Part shown: piece by piece, positions 9,843-31,414 of the stretch | Numbering within the stretch: position 1 is the stretch's first letter | Layout of the letters: each line of letters opens with the position of its first letter | The notes under the pieces: model-generated | Databases searched by the model: none | Seen by the model: the letters and a program-made list of their open reading frames with translations, nothing else | Told to the model about the DNA's origin: nothing | Made by a program: the position numbers and the translations under genes | Source: a virus | IMG/VR virus record: IMGVR_UViG_3300032224_000950 | Location: 1-62,525 of that record | Strand: one strand, 5' to 3' | Length of the DNA stretch: 62,525 nucleotides

Positions 9843-10084
9843 TGGATATGGATCAAGCGGCCGTATTCCTAGCCGGTAGTATATTAACAATGCTAGGATT
9901 TGTTATAGTTGTTGCTGGGTTTGTTGTCATCAACAACATCATACACAAATATTGGAAGCCTGTCAAAATATTTACACCAGATAGTTGGTCAATGATTAAT
10001 CCTCCTTTAAAGTTTGTTAATCAGGATGAGTTAGATCGTGTTGCACCTAAATTAGAAGCATTAGATAAAAAGGAAGTTAAATGA
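9842..10084 (+). CDS. Small membrane protein, unknown
   Basis: The 80-residue protein has a single strong membrane helix at about residues 8-32 (VFLAGSILTMLGFVIVVAGF). A soluble tail ends in a charged segment (RVAPKLEALDKKEVK). The start overlaps the stop of the preceding gene, and its own stop overlaps the start of the clamp-loader gene (ATGA). The gene is therefore transcribed in the early replication operon. No known family is recognised. Confidence 0.55.
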   Translation: MDMDQAAVFLAGSILTMLGFVIVVAGFVVINNIIHKYWKPVKIFTPDSWSMINPPLKFVNQDELDRVAPKLEALDKKEVK

Positions 10085-20049: not shown

Positions 20050-20057
20050 GATAAATA
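20050..20057 (+). promoter_or_regulatory. T4-type late promoter
   Basis: GATAAATA matches the T4 late consensus TATAAATA at seven of eight positions. It is 46 bases upstream of the ATG at 20104. It would drive the cargo-like gene block. Confidence 0.65.
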
Positions 20058-20079
20058 CTCTAACCGCAGAGTATTCTGC
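20054..20079 (+). promoter_or_regulatory. Two mutually exclusive hairpins at the late promoter
   Basis: AATACTCT/AGAGTATT (20054-20061 with 20068-20075) forms an 8-bp stem. GCAGA/TCTGC (20066-20070 with 20075-20079) forms a competing 5-bp stem. The first overlaps the late promoter, and the second lies in the expected leader of its RNA. Confidence 0.5.
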
Positions 20080-20103: not shown

Positions 20104-20475
20104 ATGCGCATACAAGAACTGCTAGAAGGCAAAATTTTCAATGATTTAGACTTTGTTAAACATGGCGAGAATGGCCGTGAGTTAGACTACGATTTAGTAG
20201 AAGATCTAGCATATTTTATGAATCATGATGATGAAGCATATCGCCGTCATACTCATCCTGCTGTAATGCATTGCATTGACAGCATGAAGCATCATATTAA
20301 ACCTAAAGCAGACGTATTTGCGCCTTCTATCAAAGAATGCTATAAAATGTATGTTAAAAAATTCCCGATCCGTGAATTACCGAACGAATTAGACGAAGAG
20401 ACTACTAAACAAATTTGTGATAAGATGCACGAAGACGTTATACAGCACATTGGTGACGGAAAGTACAAGGACTAA
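20104..20475 (+). CDS. Unknown protein with capsid-targeting-like N-terminus
   Basis: The 123-residue protein begins MRIQELLEGK, where L6-L-E8 fits the T4 prohead protease cut rule [L/I]-x-E. The same kind of leader starts the next three genes. The body is acidic, with several His residues (HDDEAYRRHTHPAVMHCIDSMKHHIK), and mostly helical. No enzyme family is recognised. The tag suggests it is packaged in the head and possibly ejected with DNA (inference). Confidence 0.6.
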   Translation: MRIQELLEGKIFNDLDFVKHGENGRELDYDLVEDLAYFMNHDDEAYRRHTHPAVMHCIDSMKHHIKPKADVFAPSIKECYKMYVKKFPIRELPNELDEETTKQICDKMHEDVIQHIGDGKYKD

Positions 20476-20477
20476 CC

Positions 20478-21638
20478 GTGAGATTACGTGAGCTGTTTAT
20501 TCGTGAGACTGTCGCTACTGCTCAAAAACAACTAGGCAGAGCATTCAACCATCCAGAGCATTTTGTATTCTTTCACGGTGCCGCAGGTACATTAGAAGCA
20601 CTACAGCATTTTGAAGAAGTTGCTGTTGAAAAACCCGGTGCAACTACTGTACGTAAAAAATGGGATGGTAATCCTCAAATCTATTGGGGTAGAGAACATA
20701 AGGGCGGTCCACTTATACTTGCCGGGCATAACGGTTGGAGTCGTGGTGCTAAGACCACTAGTCCAGAAGAAGTAGCTGATTTTATCGCTAACAAGAGCGG
20801 CAAGCCCGGAACACCTGAGCAAGATGCTGAACGTAAACGTTTTGCACAAGAGTTTGCTAGCTTATATCCTATATTCGATCGTGCTACTCCTACAGACTTT
20901 GAGGGATTTGTCTATGCAGACGGGTTATTCCTTAAACGCCCGGCATTGGGTAAAGATGGTGTTTATACATTCTGTCCTAATCCTAATAGTAACACTTGTT
21001 ATCATGTAAGAAGTGACAGCAAGCTAGGTCAGCGTATTGCTAATGCACAGGTCATGGTTACTGGGCATGGATATTTTCCGCACTTTGGAATGCCTGATAA
21101 TCAACAAAAACCCAAAGATGACTTTAGTGAGTTTAATGGCACTGCACCATTAATAGTACAAGGTCCTATTTACAATCCCACTGCACCTCAACATGATATT
21201 AGTGTTATAAAACCTTTAAAAGATTATGTAACCAAGCATGGTCGTGTAATAGATGCGTTTATTAACAGTATTCCGCCAACTGATAAAGAAGGTATTTTTT
21301 ATAAATTTGCCAATGCTATGAGCAAAACTGGTGCATTTGATAGTATTACTAATCAAGGATTCTTCAACTGGCTAGCTGATCCTAAAAATAAGATCAGTAA
21401 CAACAAGCGTATGCACATTGAAGCTATGAGTAAACAGCATCTTGGAGCATTAGATGGGATTTGGCATTTAATGAAGAAGATAAGACACTTAAAAGACCAG
21501 CAACACGGTGCTTTAGAAGCACAGCCTAAGCCGGATATATGGGACACAAACGGTGAGGGCAATGTAAGATATGCCCAGCCAGGAAAGCATAAATATGGTA
21601 ATGTAAAGTTCGTACCTACAAGTTGGACACCTAAATGA
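20478..21638 (+). CDS. KxDG-motif protein, possible ligase-like nucleotidyltransferase, with CTS-like leader
   Basis: The 386-residue protein starts at GTG 20478, two bases after the preceding stop, as MRLRELFIRE, where I8-R-E10 is a prohead-protease-type site. K61-W-D-G fits motif I (KxDG) of DNA/RNA ligases and capping enzymes, followed by an aromatic-rich NPQIYWGRE. A later DFEGFVYADGLFLKR segment could be the motif III equivalent, and DISVIKPLK a motif V candidate. These assignments are tentative. If it is a ligase it would be unusual in being tagged for the capsid. Confidence 0.55.
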   Translation: MRLRELFIRETVATAQKQLGRAFNHPEHFVFFHGAAGTLEALQHFEEVAVEKPGATTVRKKWDGNPQIYWGREHKGGPLILAGHNGWSRGAKTTSPEEVADFIANKSGKPGTPEQDAERKRFAQEFASLYPIFDRATPTDFEGFVYADGLFLKRPALGKDGVYTFCPNPNSNTCYHVRSDSKLGQRIANAQVMVTGHGYFPHFGMPDNQQKPKDDFSEFNGTAPLIVQGPIYNPTAPQHDISVIKPLKDYVTKHGRVIDAFINSIPPTDKEGIFYKFANAMSKTGAFDSITNQGFFNWLADPKNKISNNKRMHIEAMSKQHLGALDGIWHLMKKIRHLKDQQHGALEAQPKPDIWDTNGEGNVRYAQPGKHKYGNVKFVPTSWTPK

Positions 21639-22969
21639 AATTAAGACAGTTATTTGAAGCACATAATCACGGAGCGGCCATTATATTTGGACGTTTTAAT
21701 CCGCCACATTTCGGTCATAGTAATGCATGGGATAAAGCCTCAAAGTTTCCAATTTGGTATGTTGGTACGAATCAAAGCACACAAGGTCCTAAAGATCCAT
21801 TGCCGTTTGAAGTCAAAGTAGAAGCTATGAAAACTATTATGCCCGGAATTGAAGGACATTTAGTTGCAGAGCAAAGTTGGTGGACGCTGGCTACTATGGT
21901 TTATAAAAAACATGGTGGAAATATGATCTTACATGTTGTTACTGATCCAACTGATAAAGAAATATTTGTACCAGGATTAAAAGGTTCCAACGGAGTTGAA
22001 GGCCCGCATGGTTACTATAAATTTATAGATGTAGTATGGGAGCCTGCTACTAGAGATAGTACAGCCACAGCCTTACGTGCCGCAGTTGAGCATGATAATC
22101 CAAAAGCGTTTTCTAAAGCCGCAGGCATTGATGCCGATACTATGATCGCAGGAAAACCATTTTTTGAGTTAGTTAAACACTATATGACACCGTACTTACA
22201 TGCGGCAGCAGAAAAAGAAAGATTAAAAGCAGAAAAAGAAAGATTAAAAGCAGAAAAAGAAGCGGCTAAAGCTAATAAAAATAAAGTAATAGCAGAAAAA
22301 AGTACTAGTGAAAAGCAAGCTCGCTTTATGGCCGCTGCCGCTCACGATCCTGCATTTGCCGCACGTACTGGCATTAAGCAAAGCGTAGCTAAAGAATTTA
22401 ATAAGGCAGATACTGGCACTAAGCAGTTGAGCAATGCAATGAAGCATAAAAAGAAAATGGAAGATGCCGCAGGCGTAGGCACTATTGATAAACAAAATTC
22501 AACTGTGGATGTAAATAAAACAACCCCTGCAAAGAATCTACGAGCATTTAATCTAATCAAAGAAACCAATAAAAAAATTAGAGAAAGAAAACGAGCGGTA
22601 GCAGAAGGTGCTAAGGCACACGGTTCATTTATAGGTATCGGTGCTGATGTTGATGCAGCCTTGCCAGGTGTTTGGCTACAGCGTCAATTGCGTAACACTG
22701 ACCCGTATATGCAATACCGTTACGGGCTAGCATTGGCGGCAGCTCGCGCAGATGCAGCCGGCCATGTTGATTTCGAACAAGAAAGTGGTTGGGCAGAAAA
22801 CTTAACAATCGTCGGCTTTACTCCCGAAGATGCAGAAGTAATTAAGATGGCAGACAAATTAATGGGTGTACATGGTACTAGAGTTGCTGACGATAAAAGC
22901 AGAGAAGCCAAAGGTACATCAACTCAAAGTGTAGTTGCCAAACCAAAACGCAACCGATACGGGATATAA
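21635..22969 (+). CDS. NMN-adenylyltransferase-like cytidylyltransferase-fold protein with CTS-like leader
   Basis: After MKLRQLFEA (L6-F-E8 cut-type site) comes IIFGRFNPPHFGHSNAW with the HxGH motif (HFGH, 25-28). RDSTATALR at 140-148 corresponds to the ISSTxxR motif, so residues 12-190 are a nucleotidyltransferase of the NMNAT type. A Lys/Glu coiled coil (about 193-215) and a basic linker follow. The C-terminal domain of about 100 residues is shared with the next gene. The substrate could be NMN, implying a NAD role, but this is not proven. It overlaps the preceding gene by ATGA. Confidence 0.7.
   Translation: MKLRQLFEAHNHGAAIIFGRFNPPHFGHSNAWDKASKFPIWYVGTNQSTQGPKDPLPFEVKVEAMKTIMPGIEGHLVAEQSWWTLATMVYKKHGGNMILHVVTDPTDKEIFVPGLKGSNGVEGPHGYYKFIDVVWEPATRDSTATALRAAVEHDNPKAFSKAAGIDADTMIAGKPFFELVKHYMTPYLHAAAEKERLKAEKERLKAEKEAAKANKNKVIAEKSTSEKQARFMAAAAHDPAFAARTGIKQSVAKEFNKADTGTKQLSNAMKHKKKMEDAAGVGTIDKQNSTVDVNKTTPAKNLRAFNLIKETNKKIRERKRAVAEGAKAHGSFIGIGADVDAALPGVWLQRQLRNTDPYMQYRYGLALAAARADAAGHVDFEQESGWAENLTIVGFTPEDAEVIKMADKLMGVHGTRVADDKSREAKGTSTQSVVAKPKRNRYGI
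22208..22261 (+). repeat. 21-bp tandem repeat in the coiled-coil linker
   Basis: Two identical 21-base units (22208-22228, 22229-22249) and a partial third encode repeats of AEKERLK. The in-frame heptad period extends a coiled coil by whole turns. Confidence 0.85.
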
Positions 22970-22970
22970 T

Positions 22971-23321
22971 ATGCGAGCCAAAGAATTTATCAACGAAGCA
23001 CAAGAGTTATCCAAGGTAGTTCGGCAGGCTGGTATATATGCCAAACGATATGACAATCTCGATCAATACTATGGCATGTATCGATTGGGGTTGGCTATTG
23101 CCGCAGGAGATAGAAACCCACTTGACGGCAAAGGACCTACACGTGATAATCCCACTTTATGGATGTACACACCAGAAGAAGCTGAAATGGTTGCAAAGGC
23201 TGAAAAGCGTCAAGGCGTAAAAGGCACTACTATCATAGGTGATGGGCAAAGTACTGAATTAGATTCAATCAATAAGAAAAGTCCAACTGCGACTCGTAAA
23301 ACAAACAAATATGGTGTATAA
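22971..23321 (+). CDS. Small CTS-tagged protein, paralogue of the NMNAT-like C-terminal domain
   Basis: The ATG at 22971 lies one base after the previous stop. It gives MRAKEFINEA, the closest match in the window to the T4 internal-protein leader MKTYQEFIAEA, with I7-N-E9 as the cut site. An upstream in-frame start at 22935 would lie inside the previous gene. The body (YYGMYRLGLAIAAGD, TPEEAEMVAKAEKRQGVKGT, ending NKYGV) matches the C-terminal domain of the preceding protein (YMQYRYGLALAAARA, TPEDAEVIKMADK, ending NRYGI). The 116-residue protein is likely a packaged domain on its own. Confidence 0.65.
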   Translation: MRAKEFINEAQELSKVVRQAGIYAKRYDNLDQYYGMYRLGLAIAAGDRNPLDGKGPTRDNPTLWMYTPEEAEMVAKAEKRQGVKGTTIIGDGQSTELDSINKKSPTATRKTNKYGV

Positions 23322-23324
23322 AAA

Positions 23325-23765
23325 ATGGATATCAATAAATATCATCTATCATTAAAAACTGCTTTCGCAAGCGAATTTAGTTTTTATCTAAAAACACACA
23401 ACTTCCATTGGAATGTGGAAGGGCCGTTGTTCGGCCAGTTACACAAATTATTCAAGACCATATACAAAGAAGTGTATGGCGCTATTGATCCATTTGCTGA
23501 ACATTTACGTTATCTTGAGTTATATGCTCCGGCTAGTCTGCACAAGTTCAGTATGTTGACCACAGTAGACGACCAAAATGACGTACTAGAGTGGAAACAG
23601 ATGCTAGAAATGTTGCTGGCTGACAGTGAAAAAATGAGTGAGATATTCCGTATCTGTTTTGAAATGGCAGAAGCCAACGGTGATCACGGACTAAGTAATT
23701 TCTTAGCTGATCGTCAAGACGCACATAAAGCTCACAGTTGGATGTTGAGATCCAGTTTAAAATGA
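23325..23765 (+). CDS. dps: Dps/ferritin-like protein
   Basis: The 146-residue protein shows the Dps ferroxidase signature: KTHNFHWNVEGPLFGQLHKLF (about 23-43) followed by IDPFAEHLRYLE with the expected acidic ligands. It is somewhat shorter than bacterial Dps (about 160-170), lacking an obvious Lys-rich N-terminal DNA-binding tail. Dps oxidises and stores iron and shields DNA. In a phage it could protect DNA in the cell or head (inference). It sits among genes with capsid-targeting-like leaders but lacks one itself. The stop overlaps the next start by ATGA. Confidence 0.8.
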   Translation: MDINKYHLSLKTAFASEFSFYLKTHNFHWNVEGPLFGQLHKLFKTIYKEVYGAIDPFAEHLRYLELYAPASLHKFSMLTTVDDQNDVLEWKQMLEMLLADSEKMSEIFRICFEMAEANGDHGLSNFLADRQDAHKAHSWMLRSSLK

Positions 23766-24055
23766 AACAGTATAGGATCACTACAGAGCACTTAAATCAA
23801 GACAGTCCAGACGACTGCTATCTTGCTCCAGACGATCCTATTAATGAATTGAAAGCTATACAACATCTAGCAGGACTAGGTAGCGATGCAAGACTACACG
23901 AACTTAGGGTTAAACAGGGTAGCAACATCAGCGTAACTGGCAGCGACAAAGGTCGCATACAACGAGAAAAAAATATTAAGGCCGGAACCCCTGAATGGTT
24001 CCAACTGTGGTTTAGCAAGCCATATTTGACAGGCGAAAAGCCAGTGGGAAAATAA
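23762..24055 (+). CDS. Unknown small protein
   Basis: The 97-residue protein starts at ATG 23762, overlapping the Dps stop (ATGA). An in-frame start at 23738 inside Dps is less likely. Features are an acidic first half (NQDSPDDCYLAPDDPINELK) and a basic middle (TGSDKGRIQREKNIKAGTPEWFQLWF). No known domain is recognised. It ends one base before the next gene and is part of the same late transcript. Confidence 0.55.
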   Translation: MKQYRITTEHLNQDSPDDCYLAPDDPINELKAIQHLAGLGSDARLHELRVKQGSNISVTGSDKGRIQREKNIKAGTPEWFQLWFSKPYLTGEKPVGK

Positions 24056-24056
24056 T

Positions 24057-24632
24057 ATGAAAATGTACGAATTAGATGAAAATTACAATCACGGTCACCC
24101 CGATCCACGTGCTCCACAATTAGGAAGTCACGAAAAACGTGAGTTCAAACGTGCTGAATTACAACACGAATTGGGCCACGAAACTAATAATATTGCCATC
24201 GATATCAATGGTAAAACTTGGAAAGTAGTACCAGGCAAGGGTTATGCTGATAGTCATGAAGAACGTGCATATCTACGTCATATGCAATCATGGGCTGAAA
24301 AGAAATCAGCCAGTTCAGGCAAAAAGTGGTCAGTACACTTGACAGGCGCTGAGCCAACCAATGAAGGCGCACAAAACGCCGCTATCGCCATCGCCAAAAG
24401 AGAGTCAGGAAAGTACACCAAAGACGGTAAGCGTATCAAAGAATCAGCCACAGTAGGTGCTACCAGCAGTGCAAATATTGCTACAGTAGCTAATCCGGAC
24501 CAAGCGTATAACAAAAAATCAGTAAAAAGCGTAAGTGCGCTAGATCAAGACGAAGTTAGCTTGTTCGGTGCACCTATGGAAACAGTTAAAAATACAGCGG
24601 GTAAAAAAGCCGCTATCATCAAAAGACGATAA
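24057..24632 (+). CDS. Basic, His-rich protein with CTS-like leader
   Basis: The 191-residue protein begins MKMYELDEN, where L6-D-E8 is a prohead-protease-type site. The middle is charged and His-rich (HGHPDPRAPQLGSHEKREFKR), followed by a DINGKTWKVVPGKGYA motif. The C-terminal half contains IKESATVGATSSANIATVANP, a low-complexity motif with another I-x-E site, and ends in a basic KKAAIIKRR. A DNA-associated, head-internal protein is a reasonable inference; no enzyme signature is seen. Confidence 0.6.
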   Translation: MKMYELDENYNHGHPDPRAPQLGSHEKREFKRAELQHELGHETNNIAIDINGKTWKVVPGKGYADSHEERAYLRHMQSWAEKKSASSGKKWSVHLTGAEPTNEGAQNAAIAIAKRESGKYTKDGKRIKESATVGATSSANIATVANPDQAYNKKSVKSVSALDQDEVSLFGAPMETVKNTAGKKAAIIKRR

Positions 24633-24635
24633 ATA
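24628..24635 (+). promoter_or_regulatory. T4-type late promoter
   Basis: GATAAATA overlaps the stop of the preceding gene. It lies 25 bases before the ATG at 24660. Confidence 0.6.
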
Positions 24636-24659: not shown

Positions 24660-26078
24660 ATGCCATTAGAATTAGACCAACCAACACCAGATATGTCACA
24701 ATCAGCCGACCAGCCAATCGGCGCACACGGTCAAATAGATCGAGAAGGCGAAATGGCCAAGCAAGATCTAGAAAAAATCTCAGGATATGCACAAAAGCTA
24801 GATGATAGATTACAAGATACTGATCAGCTAGAAGCTTGGGTACAGAAGAAGATTGCTGTGGCTGCTGAAAACCTAGCTTCAGTATATCACTATCTAGCTT
24901 ATGAAATGACAGTTAATGAATACGCTGAGTACTTGAGAAAAAATGGTCTACTAAGTGAAGGCACGAATCATCCAGCTGTACGTAAGTTGATGGAAGCAAA
25001 AGCCAAGATCAAAGAACTTAAGAAAGCACAAGTTGAAAAGCAAGCTGATAAGAAAGTTGCTGAAGGTATTCTAAGTGGTGGTGAGCGTCCTTGTACAGAA
25101 TGTGGCGGAACAGGTATGGTTTATGAAGAGCCAAAAGCGATTCCAGATCATGTTAAAGGTAAAGTTGGCAAGTATAATACAATGGTTAAGGCTACTAGAG
25201 CCGCTCACAAGCGTATGGAAGAAGAAGGTGAGATGGACGAAGACTTCGGTAGTAGCGACAAAGAAATGAAAGTCGGCGATAAGAAAAAGACTCGTACTGG
25301 TGAATTAACAAAAACATCAACAGGTGTTGTTCATAAGAATACTAGCTATCATGACGATGGCGAAGCTGAAGAAAAATCAGGTAAGGGCATTAAGAGCCAC
25401 GCTAAGTCACAATCAGCCGCAGAAAAGAAAGAAAAAGCTCCAGCACAGAAAAAGTCTAAGACCGGTACTTGGGGAATGGAAAACGGCGAGAAGTTTGACA
25501 ACCGTAAGAAAGAAAAAGAAGTTGATGAAACTTACGGCCGCGGTGTTTATGAAGCTAAAGGTAAATGTTGCTGTGAAGAAAAAGGCAAAGCTAAATGTCC
25601 TGTACATGGTAAGGTTGCAGAATCATCTAAACCAAGTGCAGGATTGAGTGCCGCTAAGAAATCAGCTACAGTTAAGAAAGCTAAAGCAGGTGGCGATATT
25701 GGCAAGCCAGGTAAGGGTTTTAAGAAAGTAGCTGACAAGGCCGCTAAGGAATATGGTAGCAAGGAAGCAGGTGAAAAAGTAGCCGCTGCCGCTATGTGGA
25801 AAAACATCAAAGAAACTACCGCTTACATGGCAGAAAAGAAAGCCGCTGGTAAGAAACCAGAGTGGTTAGAAAAAGCAGAAGTTAAAGCAGAAATTAAATC
25901 AGGACAAAAAGTTAGTCCGGCAGAAGAAAAGAAAGTTGGCATTAAGAAAGAGTCGACTGATCTTACACGTATGCAAGATCAACTAGCACGTTTAAATCGT
26001 AACGAAACTAAAACTACAATCAATGAAAGTAGTGAAGTAAATCGTATCCGTGCATTAGCTAATATGCTTAAAGGCTAA
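24660..26078 (+). CDS. Large Lys/Glu-rich protein with Cys clusters
   Basis: The 472-residue protein is extremely rich in Lys, Glu and Ala. It holds one DnaJ-zinc-finger-like half site (CTECGGTGMVYEEP at about 144-157) and a second Cys cluster (GKCCCEEKGKAKCPVHG, about residue 302 onward), so it probably binds metal. The C-terminal half resembles histone-H1-like low complexity (KAGGDIGKPGKGFKKVADKAAKE). Several I-x-E sites (IKETTA, IKESTD, INESSE) fit prohead-protease cleavage. A scaffold or internal DNA-condensing role is inferred. The C-terminal NESSEVNRIRALANMLKG is shared in part with the next gene. Confidence 0.6.
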   Translation: MPLELDQPTPDMSQSADQPIGAHGQIDREGEMAKQDLEKISGYAQKLDDRLQDTDQLEAWVQKKIAVAAENLASVYHYLAYEMTVNEYAEYLRKNGLLSEGTNHPAVRKLMEAKAKIKELKKAQVEKQADKKVAEGILSGGERPCTECGGTGMVYEEPKAIPDHVKGKVGKYNTMVKATRAAHKRMEEEGEMDEDFGSSDKEMKVGDKKKTRTGELTKTSTGVVHKNTSYHDDGEAEEKSGKGIKSHAKSQSAAEKKEKAPAQKKSKTGTWGMENGEKFDNRKKEKEVDETYGRGVYEAKGKCCCEEKGKAKCPVHGKVAESSKPSAGLSAAKKSATVKKAKAGGDIGKPGKGFKKVADKAAKEYGSKEAGEKVAAAAMWKNIKETTAYMAEKKAAGKKPEWLEKAEVKAEIKSGQKVSPAEEKKVGIKKESTDLTRMQDQLARLNRNETKTTINESSEVNRIRALANMLKG

Positions 26079-26082
26079 TACT

Positions 26083-27012
26083 ATGGATTTGACAGTAAAC
26101 GGTTTACATCTATCTGAAGCTATTCTACAAGAGTTTAGCCTAGGCGGCAATGATCAAGACCAACCCCAAGTGAAGGCGTTGAATCAGTTCTTGTTAACTG
26201 CCAAAGAGCCGTGGGACAAGAACTTATATCAGTGGCGTCTCGATCGGTTAAAAGATCAAATTTCAATGGCTGGAGAACCCGGTGCTGGAAATGGGGCTCC
26301 AGTCGATAGTAAAGGCAATTACATTCAAGTGTTACCTAATAGTGAATGGCTTAAAAAGAATACAAGTCTTATCAAAGAGATACCTAATGATTGTTTACCT
26401 CCAGAAATGCGTAAACCAAATATGATGGATAAGGTCAAAGGCGTATTCGGAATGAACGAAGGTGCTGTTGGTGAGTTCGGTGATCCTAGACAACAAGCAG
26501 AACAATTCCTACGATTCAGTTCTGGATTATATGACTCTAGTAAATTGCCAAAAGATATGGTAATTACTCCTACATTAAAATTGGCTCCTACAGCAACACC
26601 TTTCAAACAAGATGTAGATATGAACGACTGGATCATGTCTAATTTAAAAGCAGCCAACGAAAAGTTACCTAAAGAATTACAAGTTACTGATGATAAATTG
26701 AGCCAGATAGGCGGTCTTAGTACATATGTACCACACGCTGATGCTTCGAATTTATCAAACTTACAAGCCCAACTTGCTAGTGCTAAAAGCAAAGGCTACG
26801 GTCCTGAAGTAACTGATACACTACAAGCACAGATTGATTCAATATCTCCACAAGATACAGATACTACATCTCCTCAGCCTTTACCCCAATCAATCGATCC
26901 GAATAATACACCAGATACTATTAGTAACGCTACTAATTCTGAGTCATATAATGCAGTTAACGAAAGTTTGGATCGAATCAAATCTTTAACAAGCCGTGTA
27001 TTAAGAGGTTAA
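26083..27012 (+). CDS. Unknown protein sharing a C-terminal tail with its neighbour
   Basis: The 309-residue protein has no recognised catalytic motif. A helical N-terminal half (PWDKNLYQWRLDRLKDQIS) is followed by a Pro/Asp/Thr-rich disordered stretch at about 255-285. The end is NESLDRIKSLTSRVLRG. The same NES...RI[KR]xL pattern closes the preceding protein, suggesting a short shared binding tail. Position between two other large unknown proteins suggests a common structure or packaging function (inference). Confidence 0.55.
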   Translation: MDLTVNGLHLSEAILQEFSLGGNDQDQPQVKALNQFLLTAKEPWDKNLYQWRLDRLKDQISMAGEPGAGNGAPVDSKGNYIQVLPNSEWLKKNTSLIKEIPNDCLPPEMRKPNMMDKVKGVFGMNEGAVGEFGDPRQQAEQFLRFSSGLYDSSKLPKDMVITPTLKLAPTATPFKQDVDMNDWIMSNLKAANEKLPKELQVTDDKLSQIGGLSTYVPHADASNLSNLQAQLASAKSKGYGPEVTDTLQAQIDSISPQDTDTTSPQPLPQSIDPNNTPDTISNATNSESYNAVNESLDRIKSLTSRVLRG

Positions 27013-28747: not shown

Positions 28748-31414
28748 ATGTCTTATGTAGACGCATGGTTTGATCGCGAAAACGATGTCATCAAGATCGT
28801 TGAACGCAATAAAAAAGGTGAAAGGGAATTTAGAAACATTCCTGTACGCCACACATTTTATGTAAAAGACCCTAAGGGTAAACATCAATCAATTTATGGA
28901 GATCCTGTACAACGGATCGTCTGTAAAAATACTAAAGAACTTCGTAAAGAACAAGCAATCAATTCAGGTAAGCAGTTATTTGAATCAGACATCAATCCAA
29001 TCTTTGTAACCTTAAGTGAAAACTATCTTAATGCAGATGCTCCAAAACTAAATGTAGCATTTTTCGATATTGAGGTAGACTTCGATCCAGAACGTGGCTA
29101 TGCATCACCCGATGATGCGTTCATGCCAATTACTGCTATCGCTGTTTACCTACAATGGATGGAGACCATGGTATGTCTAGCAGTTCCGCCAAAGACTATT
29201 ACAATGGAAACTGCATTGGAGCAGGTTAAAGAATTTCCAAACACTATGCTGTATAAAACAGAAGCAGAAATGCTAGATGTCTTTTTAGATCTTATCAAAG
29301 ATGCAGATATATTAAGTGGTTGGAATTCAGAAGGTTTCGATATTCCTTACACCACTAATCGTGTTACTAAGGTATTAAGCAAAGAAGATACTCGACGCTT
29401 CTGTTTGTTTGATCAATTTCCTAAACGCAGAGAATATGAAAAGTTTGGTCGTGATAGTGTAACCTATGACTATATTGGTCGCGTTCACTTAGACTATCTT
29501 GAGCTGTACCGTAAGTATACGTATGAAGAACGCCACAGTTATAGACTTGACGCCATTGCGGAATATGAGTTAGGTCAACGTAAAACACAATATGAAGGTA
29601 CGCTCGACCAATTATACAACAATGATTTTAAGACATTTATTGAGTATAATCGCAATGACTGTAAACTATTAGACGACTTAGATAAGAAATTAAAATTCTT
29701 AGATCTTGCTAATACACTAGCACATGAATGTACAGTATTGCTACAAACAACAATGGGTGCTGTGGCTGTTACTGAACAGGCTATTATTAACGAAGCCCAT
29801 AGACGTAATATGCAAGTGCCAAACCGCACTAAGATGGATGAACGTGAAGATAACTCTGCGGCAGGTGCGTATGTAGCGTATCCTAAAGAAGGTATTCACG
29901 ATTGGATTGGCTCACTAGACATTAACAGTCTATATCCAAGTGCCATTCGTGCGCTTAATATGGGTCCGGAAACTATTATTGGTCAATTACGTCAAACTAT
30001 GACTGACGAATATATCGAATTACAAATGGCAAAAGGTAAAAGTTTTGCCGCGGCATGGGAAGGTATGTTCGGTAGTCTAGAGTATACTGCTGTTATGAAT
30101 CAGGAGATTGGAACAGAAATTACGATCGACTGGGAAAACGGCGATGTTGATGTACTAAGTGCCGCAGAAGTATATAGACTTATATTTGAAAGCAATCAAC
30201 CTTGGATGATAAGTGCTAATGGTACTATTTTCTCGCATGAAACAGAAGGTGTTATACCTGGATTACTCAAGCGTTGGTATGCAGAACGTAAGGAAATGCA
30301 GGCTAAACTTAAAGAAGCTATCAATGCTGGTAATAAGATCGAAGAAGAATACTGGGACAAGCGACAGTTAGTTAAGAAGATTAACTTGAACAGTTTGTAT
30401 GGTGCTATTCTTAATCCCGGCTGTAGATTCTTTGACAAACGTATTGGACAATCAACTACTTTAACAGGTCGTCAGATTGTTAAACATATGGCGGCTAAAG
30501 TAAATGAGATTGTTGCTGGAGAATATGACTATCGCGGCAAAGCCATTATCTATGGTGATACTGACTCATGTTACTTTAGTGCTTATAAGACCCTGCAAAA
30601 AGACATCGATGCTGGTCATATTCCCTGGACTAAAGAAAATGTCATACAGTTGTATGATCAAATCGGAGAAGAAGTTAATCAAACATTCCCTCAGTTTATG
30701 TTAGATACATTCCATGTACCAAAGACCCGCGGTGAAGTTATTAAAGCAGGTCGTGAGATTGTTGGCAGTAAGAGTTTGTTCATTACTAAAAAACGTTATG
30801 CTGTTCTTTACTACGATAAAGAAGGCAAACGTGCAGACGTAGATGGTAAACCAGGTAAGATCAAGGCCATGGGCTTGGATTTGAAGCGCAGTGACACTCC
30901 TGAATTTATTCAGAACTTTTTAAGCGATGTTCTTGAAATGGTTCTAATGGGCAAAGAAGAACAAGATGTGTTGGATATGATTACAACGTTTCGTACCCTG
31001 TTCAAAGGTCGACCTGGTTGGGAAAAAGGTAGTCCAAAACGTGCAAATAAGATAACCGAATATCAAGGTAAAGAAACTAAAGCAGGTAAGACTAACATGC
31101 CTGGACATGTTCGAGCTAGTATTAACTGGAATACACTCAAACGTATGTATGGTGACAAGTACAGTATGGGTATTACTGACGGTGCAAAAGTTATCGTATG
31201 TAAACTCAAACCCAATCCGCTGGGATTTACATCAGTTGCATACCCAGTAGATGAGCTAAGACTGCCACAATGGTTTAAAGATTTACCGTTTGATCACGCA
31301 GAGATGGAACAGACTATTATTGACAACAAGTTAGATAATCTAATCGGTGTTCTAAAATGGGACATTAACAGCACTGAAGAAAAGAATACTTTTAATTCAC
31401 TATTTGAGTTTTAA
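28748..31414 (+). CDS. 43: Family B DNA polymerase, T4 gp43-like
   Basis: The 888-residue replicative polymerase (T4 gp43 has 898) has a 3'-5' exonuclease domain with the ExoI motif FFDIEVDFDP (Asp107, Glu109) and later NSEGFDIPYT. The polymerase motifs are DINSLYPSAI (Asp391), KKINLNSLYGAI and YGDTDSCYF (Asp604, Asp606). All catalytic Asp residues are present, so it should be active. The C-terminus ends FNSLFEF, the short tail expected to bind the sliding clamp. It works with the clamp (32236), clamp loader (10081) and flap nuclease (42867). Confidence 0.96.
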   Translation: MSYVDAWFDRENDVIKIVERNKKGEREFRNIPVRHTFYVKDPKGKHQSIYGDPVQRIVCKNTKELRKEQAINSGKQLFESDINPIFVTLSENYLNADAPKLNVAFFDIEVDFDPERGYASPDDAFMPITAIAVYLQWMETMVCLAVPPKTITMETALEQVKEFPNTMLYKTEAEMLDVFLDLIKDADILSGWNSEGFDIPYTTNRVTKVLSKEDTRRFCLFDQFPKRREYEKFGRDSVTYDYIGRVHLDYLELYRKYTYEERHSYRLDAIAEYELGQRKTQYEGTLDQLYNNDFKTFIEYNRNDCKLLDDLDKKLKFLDLANTLAHECTVLLQTTMGAVAVTEQAIINEAHRRNMQVPNRTKMDEREDNSAAGAYVAYPKEGIHDWIGSLDINSLYPSAIRALNMGPETIIGQLRQTMTDEYIELQMAKGKSFAAAWEGMFGSLEYTAVMNQEIGTEITIDWENGDVDVLSAAEVYRLIFESNQPWMISANGTIFSHETEGVIPGLLKRWYAERKEMQAKLKEAINAGNKIEEEYWDKRQLVKKINLNSLYGAILNPGCRFFDKRIGQSTTLTGRQIVKHMAAKVNEIVAGEYDYRGKAIIYGDTDSCYFSAYKTLQKDIDAGHIPWTKENVIQLYDQIGEEVNQTFPQFMLDTFHVPKTRGEVIKAGREIVGSKSLFITKKRYAVLYYDKEGKRADVDGKPGKIKAMGLDLKRSDTPEFIQNFLSDVLEMVLMGKEEQDVLDMITTFRTLFKGRPGWEKGSPKRANKITEYQGKETKAGKTNMPGHVRASINWNTLKRMYGDKYSMGITDGAKVIVCKLKPNPLGFTSVAYPVDELRLPQWFKDLPFDHAEMEQTIIDNKLDNLIGVLKWDINSTEEKNTFNSLFEF

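Follow-up and report, generated by a model that had tools for sequence, protein, structure and literature searches.

A late gene block of a T4-like phage predicted to encode head cargo with removable leaders and a copy of the capsid-protein N-terminus

The stretch of DNA analysed here (the window) is a virus record of 62,525 bases and a fragment of a T4-like phage, in which a DNA polymerase gene at 28748 and a clamp-loader-like gene at 10081 were recognised from the sequence only. We studied a run of genes at positions 20104-24632, five of whose products open with short leaders like the capsid-targeting sequence (CTS) of T4 internal head proteins. This run very probably constitutes a late-expressed set of head-cargo proteins with removable leaders, the fifth of which carries, as a second device, a copy of the N-terminus of the mature capsid protein ("N-fist"). 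The features of the block are the following, with a slash marking the predicted cut.

20050..20059, + strand: late-promoter-like element GATAAATACT, 54 nt upstream of the first block gene
20104..20127, + strand: leader MRIQELLE, predicted cut LLE/G
20104..20475, + strand: 123-aa protein, predicted head cargo
20478..20507, + strand: leader MRLRELFIRE (GTG start), predicted cut IRE/T
20478..21638, + strand: KxDG protein, DUF6267-like, matching the family tagged T4-GC71 in cyanophages
21635..21658, + strand: leader MKLRQLFE, predicted cut LFE/A
21635..22969, + strand: NMNAT/cytidylyltransferase-like protein, relative of T4-GC190, with a C-terminal domain ending NRYGI
22971..22997, + strand: leader MRAKEFINE, predicted cut INE/A; this leader type precedes a capsid-protein copy in relative L097
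22971..23321, + strand: 116-aa protein, leader plus a domain shared with the 21635 C-terminus, ending NKYGV
23325..23765, + strand: Dps/ferritin-like protein (PF00210, E 4e-22), leaderless
24057..24080, + strand: leader MKMYELDE, the least typical of the five
24057..24632, + strand: 191-aa protein, consisting of leader, variable part, capsid N-terminus copy and a tail ending AAIIKRR
24441..24500, + strand: E129 (predicted P1) plus the copy of the mature capsid-protein N-terminus, SATVGATSSANIATVANPD
24628..24635, + strand: second element GATAAATA, 32 nt upstream of 24660

The first-pass annotation had described leaders on five proteins, and all five N-termini were found at 20104, 20478, 21635, 22971 and 24057. 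Their start residues are as it gave them, except that the M of 20478 is not encoded as ATG; because the start codon is GTG, this residue is methionine by initiation only. The [L/I]xE triplet, which it had placed at residues 6-10, is present as L6-L7-E8 (20104), I8-R9-E10 (20478), L6-F7-E8 (21635), I7-N8-E9 (22971) and L6-D7-E8 (24057). A scan of the 82 genes called in the window (at least 50 aa) with the regular expression ^M[KR].{3,6}[LI].E retrieved precisely these five, with 0.94 expected after shuffling of residues 3-14. They are genes 25, 26, 27, 28 and 31 of the 82 and thus lie inside seven consecutive genes (p = 4e-5 for five random genes); the Dps-like ferritin (23325) and gene 23762 stand inside the run without a leader. 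This test is not fully independent, because the expression was derived from the first-pass description, and relatives were therefore scanned as a further check. Nine related contigs, two of them near-identical in this region, yielded 44 matches against about 14 expected, mostly in one block per contig, and a stricter expression yielded 32 against about 4. In T4, the same expression retrieved two genes beginning MKTYQEFIAEA as well as gp61.1. At the place of the least typical leader, MKMYELDE, homologues carry MKIKELLE, MKIAEILSE, MRLREIISE or MRAKEFISE.

Comparison with relatives, in which genes and their starts were called by a simple script, revealed that the leader is kept while the residues following it vary. 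The information per column in the family of the 22971 protein amounts to 3.14 bits for residues 2-9, 1.68 for residues 10-20 and 2.58 beyond, and the corresponding values for the KxDG family are 3.36, 2.58 and 3.05 bits; such a dip after the leader is what one expects where a targeting signal precedes an unconstrained linker. About 30 homologues of the 20104 protein, down to 40% identity, keep MRI[QRNK]EL[LC]E with variable residues thereafter. Leaders are also exchanged between homologues: KxDG proteins start with MRLRELFIRE, MLLRELFLKE, MRAFEFLNEAD or MRIRELLEAAA, and homologues of the 21635 enzyme with MKLRQLFEA, MNLRELFEA or MKTYHLTES, or they have no leader. In the viral loci around the block, 200 distinct leader-bearing proteins, a few of which are false positives such as a ClpB-like fragment, fell into 29 body clusters. 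Among the bodies are an M23 peptidase with a peptidoglycan-binding domain, an SLT transglycosylase, a nucleotidyltransferase and a deaminase/DUF6886/ParB-like protein. A protein encoded at L041:4332-5753 combines a leader with a GDSIAVG motif and a peptidoglycan-binding domain and is possibly a packaged SGNH-type hydrolase. In the AlphaFold model of the KxDG protein (overall pLDDT 89), residues 1-17 lie below pLDDT 50 and the body is at about 90. The leaders are conserved, swappable, outside the confident fold and attached to many unrelated bodies, which supports the earlier suggestion that they serve in targeting.

The 21635 protein had been called NMNAT-like, and its identity was confirmed by the GRFNPxHxGH motif of the CTP_transf_like domain, which is visible in its sequence and places it in that superfamily, together with matches to PF01467 (E 5e-4; 20.7 bits against a cut-off of 21), phrog_3041 (E 6e-9) and phrog_395 (E 1e-8). 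The KxDG protein matches DUF6267 just under the family cut-off (E 8e-6) and has a cyanophage match; its relative in Melnitz matches many cyanophages, and the KxDG motif is invariant in the family. In T4-like marine phages, the pair of KxDG (T4-GC71) and cytidylyltransferase (T4-GC190) genes sits between genes 41 and 61. According to the excerpted text of the respective reports, mass spectrometry detected GC190 in purified virions of S-SM1 (PMC3037559) and NMNAT-like homologues in virions of S-SZBM1 (PMC9146016) and S-SCSM1 (PMC9602691), and further virion cases of such enzymes are given in PMC10665884; these excerpts neither name a targeting leader nor state mature N-termini. The S-SM1 protein starts with MKKFSAFLNEA, the S-SZBM1 protein with MRFRQFIIEA and the S-SCSM1 protein with MKSFLQFLKEA. 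Of the nine genes in the syntenic stretch of S-SCSM1, seven carry a virion-protein annotation (ORFs 89, 90, 91, 92, 93, 95 and 97). The occurrence of the related enzyme in purified virions of several cyanophages supports, via homologues, the first-pass proposal that the block encodes packaged cargo. The annotated virion protein ORF93 (L271:7627-7836) ends in KRTFKEFLEYIE, close to the T4 gp61.1 leader MKTFKEFIKE, which is N-terminal. A link of ORF93 to the middle of the 21635 protein was rejected, the similarity being not significant.

The head-cargo interpretation of the leaders is well supported, by inference, and was weighed against two other explanations. It is most unlikely that the leaders have no role in targeting and represent ordinary amphipathic N-termini of cytoplasmic enzymes: M[KR]..EL-like patterns do arise by chance, in about 1% of genes after shuffling, and some homologues are leaderless, but the clustering, the dip in conservation after the predicted cut, the swapping of leaders and the many unrelated bodies argue against it, as does the same kind of leader on homologues detected in virions. 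Alternatively, the leaders might bring the proteins into the prohead core, where they would be destroyed or lost before the head matures, as gp21 digests the T4 core proteins gp22, gp67 and gp68 (PMC9958956). This is very unlikely in view of the enzyme homologues and neighbouring block proteins reported, in the excerpts cited, from mature virions (PMC3037559, PMC9146016, PMC9602691).

Several observations weigh against packaging as head cargo. Leaderless forms exist among the homologues of the 21635 enzyme, and GC190 of P-HM1 and the cyanophage KxDG proteins examined have no leader. Presence in virions is argued by analogy from cyanophage homologues, and in the excerpt of PMC10665884 the authors caution that enzymes of this kind may be found in CsCl preparations through contamination. 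The 62.5-kb window, being a fragment, yielded neither an S77 protease nor a capsid gene; four related contigs contain both S77 protease and gp23 genes, the protease was found in all six T4-like isolates tested (T4, S-SM1, HTVC008M, Melnitz, P-HM1 and DLP_6), and gp23 genes were located in the same six. The targeting residues of T4 IPIII are Y4 and F7. At position 7, four leaders have L, F or I, and that of 24057 has D. Position 4, which is aromatic and matters for targeting in IPIII (PMC9026906), is aromatic in 24057 only, the other four leaders having Q, R or K. Since the virion-detected S-SZBM1 enzyme has R4 (MRFRQF) and T4 gp24 has I4, an aromatic side chain at this position is not generally required.

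The block had also been described as late. In homologous loci with readable upstream DNA, GATAAATACT lies at -53 to -63, except in L012 (match at -32); that it is kept at nearly the same place despite diverging surroundings agrees with this description. GATAAATACT is similar to TATAAATA, the late promoter of T4. Elements similar to GATAAATACT also stand upstream of 24660 and several other window genes.

For the 24057 protein, the five-leader account was right about the leader and had missed the capsid-protein copy. In KRIKE/SATVGATSSANIAT, the N-terminus of the mature capsid protein is copied directly after the glutamate of a predicted cut site. In T4, gp21 removes 65 residues from gp23 and ten from gp24 (PMC9958956), and the N-fist consists of the first residues of mature gp23, residues 66-91 (PMC7136217). 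As the capsid gene of the window phage is not in the fragment, capsid arms of relatives were used as reference, with z-scores calculated against shuffles. Of the 83 window ORFs, the 24057 protein gave the highest-ranking match to the capsid arm of G020, a relative (LSE/SATAGATSAGNIATL; z about 9), and in six related contigs, too, the best capsid-arm match belongs to this block. E immediately precedes 20 of the 21 distinct copies from loci of the window's relatives; some copy-bearing proteins comprise 70-290 residues and others 590-933. The copy is also found fused straight to a leader, as in MRAKEFISE/TASMGATSSANIAT, in a 70-residue protein of L097 (MRAKEFISE/TASMGATSSANIATVANP) and in an 86-residue protein of G006 and G008 (MRLREIISE/TATAGATSAANIGTV). 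These junctions align with LME/TATAGATGSSN and LSE/SATAGATSAGN of the relatives' capsid proteins and with the gp23 cut of T4. Since the 22971-type leader occupies the place of the capsid propeptide, the glutamate ending this leader lines up with the capsid-protein cut; the direct fusion of copy and leader would therefore tie the leader cut to the capsid-protein cut, by evolutionary rather than biochemical evidence.

Such copies were also identified outside the close relatives. T4 gp61.1, MKTFKEFIKE/DMVAGDSGGNPENISIGTTSGAVVNKGP, aligns with gp23 residues 57-93 (FLTE/AEIGGDHGYNATNIAAGQTSGAVTQIGP) in the register of the known gp23 cut; it is the best match to the gp23 N-terminus among T4 ORFs, and gp23 is its sole meaningful match in the PDB. 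P-HM1, S-SM1 and S-SCSM1 each carry a copy of their own capsid arm, that of S-SCSM1 being ORF97, an annotated virion protein. In most of the genomes tested, the copy ranked first or nearly first among the non-capsid matches. Across deep lineages every copy matches its own lineage best, HTVC008M and Melnitz being weak by score, and the copy is kept in 11 of 11 Straboviridae sampled.

We propose that the leader of 8-10 residues on each of the five proteins would bind the prohead core during assembly and would be cut off after [L/I]xE by a head protease of the gp21 type (family S77). The cargo would remain in the head alongside the DNA, poised for entry into the next host, and the leader would represent a movable module placed on many unrelated proteins. 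Leader cleavage, core binding and injection are steps that we infer for this phage. In the fifth protein, cleavage at the inner [L/I]xE site would expose the N-fist copy, which might dock at N-fist sites of the shell and so attach to the capsid the protein with its basic tail or, in relatives, cargo of larger size. Docking is put forward tentatively, by analogy with known N-fist contacts (PMC9958956, PMC7136217). Candidate sites may be those left free beside pentamers (gp24 seems to be without an N-fist of its own), and docked copies would tie basic tails or cargo of 600-900 residues to the capsid wall. It is conceivable, if not quite probable, that T4-like phages possess a second modular head-anchoring tag besides the CTS, namely a protease-exposed copy of their own N-fist docked in the shell, of which T4 gp61.1 would be the simplest form.

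The main rival to N-fist docking is a decoy role, in which the copy mimics a substrate to time or occupy the head protease and does not anchor to the shell. We consider this rather unlikely: the copy is indeed in register with the cut site, nearly always behind a glutamate, and in T4 the similarity also spans residues before the cut, but the copies of S-SM1, P-HM1 and S-SCSM1 begin near their own N-terminus with no preceding cut site, and the similarity runs through the N-fist, far past the cut. Considerably less probable still is a functionless relic of partial gene duplication. The shortness of the similarity and the label of major capsid protein given to such genes in several records would fit a relic, whereas the copy is found repeatedly in several deep lineages, either between genes 41 and 61 or within this block, resembles in each lineage its own capsid protein, is retained throughout the Straboviridae sample and is annotated as a virion protein in S-SCSM1. 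Against docking by N-fist copies count the rank of the HTVC008M copy (only 12th), the failure to find a copy in G012 and G017, where it was looked for, and the weak tracking of own gp23 within Straboviridae (p = 0.027).

As to the other properties of the block, the 123-aa protein (20104) had no match in Pfam or PHROG, and PADLOC gave no defence-related match in the block. The KxDG protein was considered as an ATP-dependent ligase; its model is confident, with no PDB match at E < 0.001, and it is not claimed as a ligase because no fold match was obtained in the PDB. A 591-residue S-PM2 protein named cytidyltransferase (A0A0M6VVW4) matches the KxDG model, which suggests that the two neighbours can be fused. 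Residues ~315-444 of the 21635 protein form a small domain ending N[K/R]YG[V/I] that is also the body of the 22971 protein, and many block proteins of relatives share this ending; a tblastn search of isolated phages with the NRYGI domain gave no match. The model of the 116-aa protein (pLDDT 62.5) was too poor for use. The Dps/ferritin-like gene at 23325-23765, which lies inside the cargo run, is conserved in many relatives. Downstream, the proteins encoded at 24660-26078 and 26083-27012 and their homologues share a C-terminal peptide, approximately DRI[K/R]xLxxxLxG, frequently located directly behind a [K/N]E site; this peptide could be the leader's equivalent at the C-terminus.

The leaders may offer a packaging mechanism for enzymes that recur in cyanophage virions without an explanation in the excerpts of the published reports, and they provide a simple sequence rule by which head cargo, peptidoglycan hydrolases and nucleotidyltransferases among it, can be predicted for T4-like phages that have not been cultured. 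The copy of the capsid N-terminus suggests a testable role for T4 gp61.1, for which no function was found in the open-licence literature; earlier work on gp61.1 or on cyanophage leaders may exist outside the literature searched. The copy also hints at a second way of attaching proteins to a phage shell, which is relevant to head assembly and to the loading of foreign proteins.

Among known systems, T4 IPI-IPIII, which carry the CTS cut by gp21, share with the window proteins the M[K/R] leader, the hydrophobic pair, the [L/I]xE triplet and mutually unrelated bodies. The window differs in having five proteins in one late run, enzyme-like bodies included, a mostly non-aromatic residue 4 and leaders often of 8-9 residues. 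The ten-residue propeptide removed from T4 gp24, MAKINELLRE/S, is very similar in sequence to leaders of the MRINELLEG type, whereas gp24 is a shell protein and the window proteins are predicted cargo. Cyanophage T4-GC190 and its neighbours between genes 41 and 61 resemble the block in the homologous enzyme, the KxDG neighbour, the kind of leader and, through their occurrence in virions, the predicted location; they differ in that the cyanophage KxDG proteins examined are leaderless and that the similarity between the enzyme bodies is only distant. T4 gp61.1 and cyanophage phrog_696 (S-SM1_197, S-SCSM1 ORF97) share with the 24057 protein a copy of the own capsid N-terminus followed by a basic stretch. 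In gp61.1 this copy is preceded by a CTS-like leader; in the 24057 protein, leader and copy are separated by about 120 additional residues.

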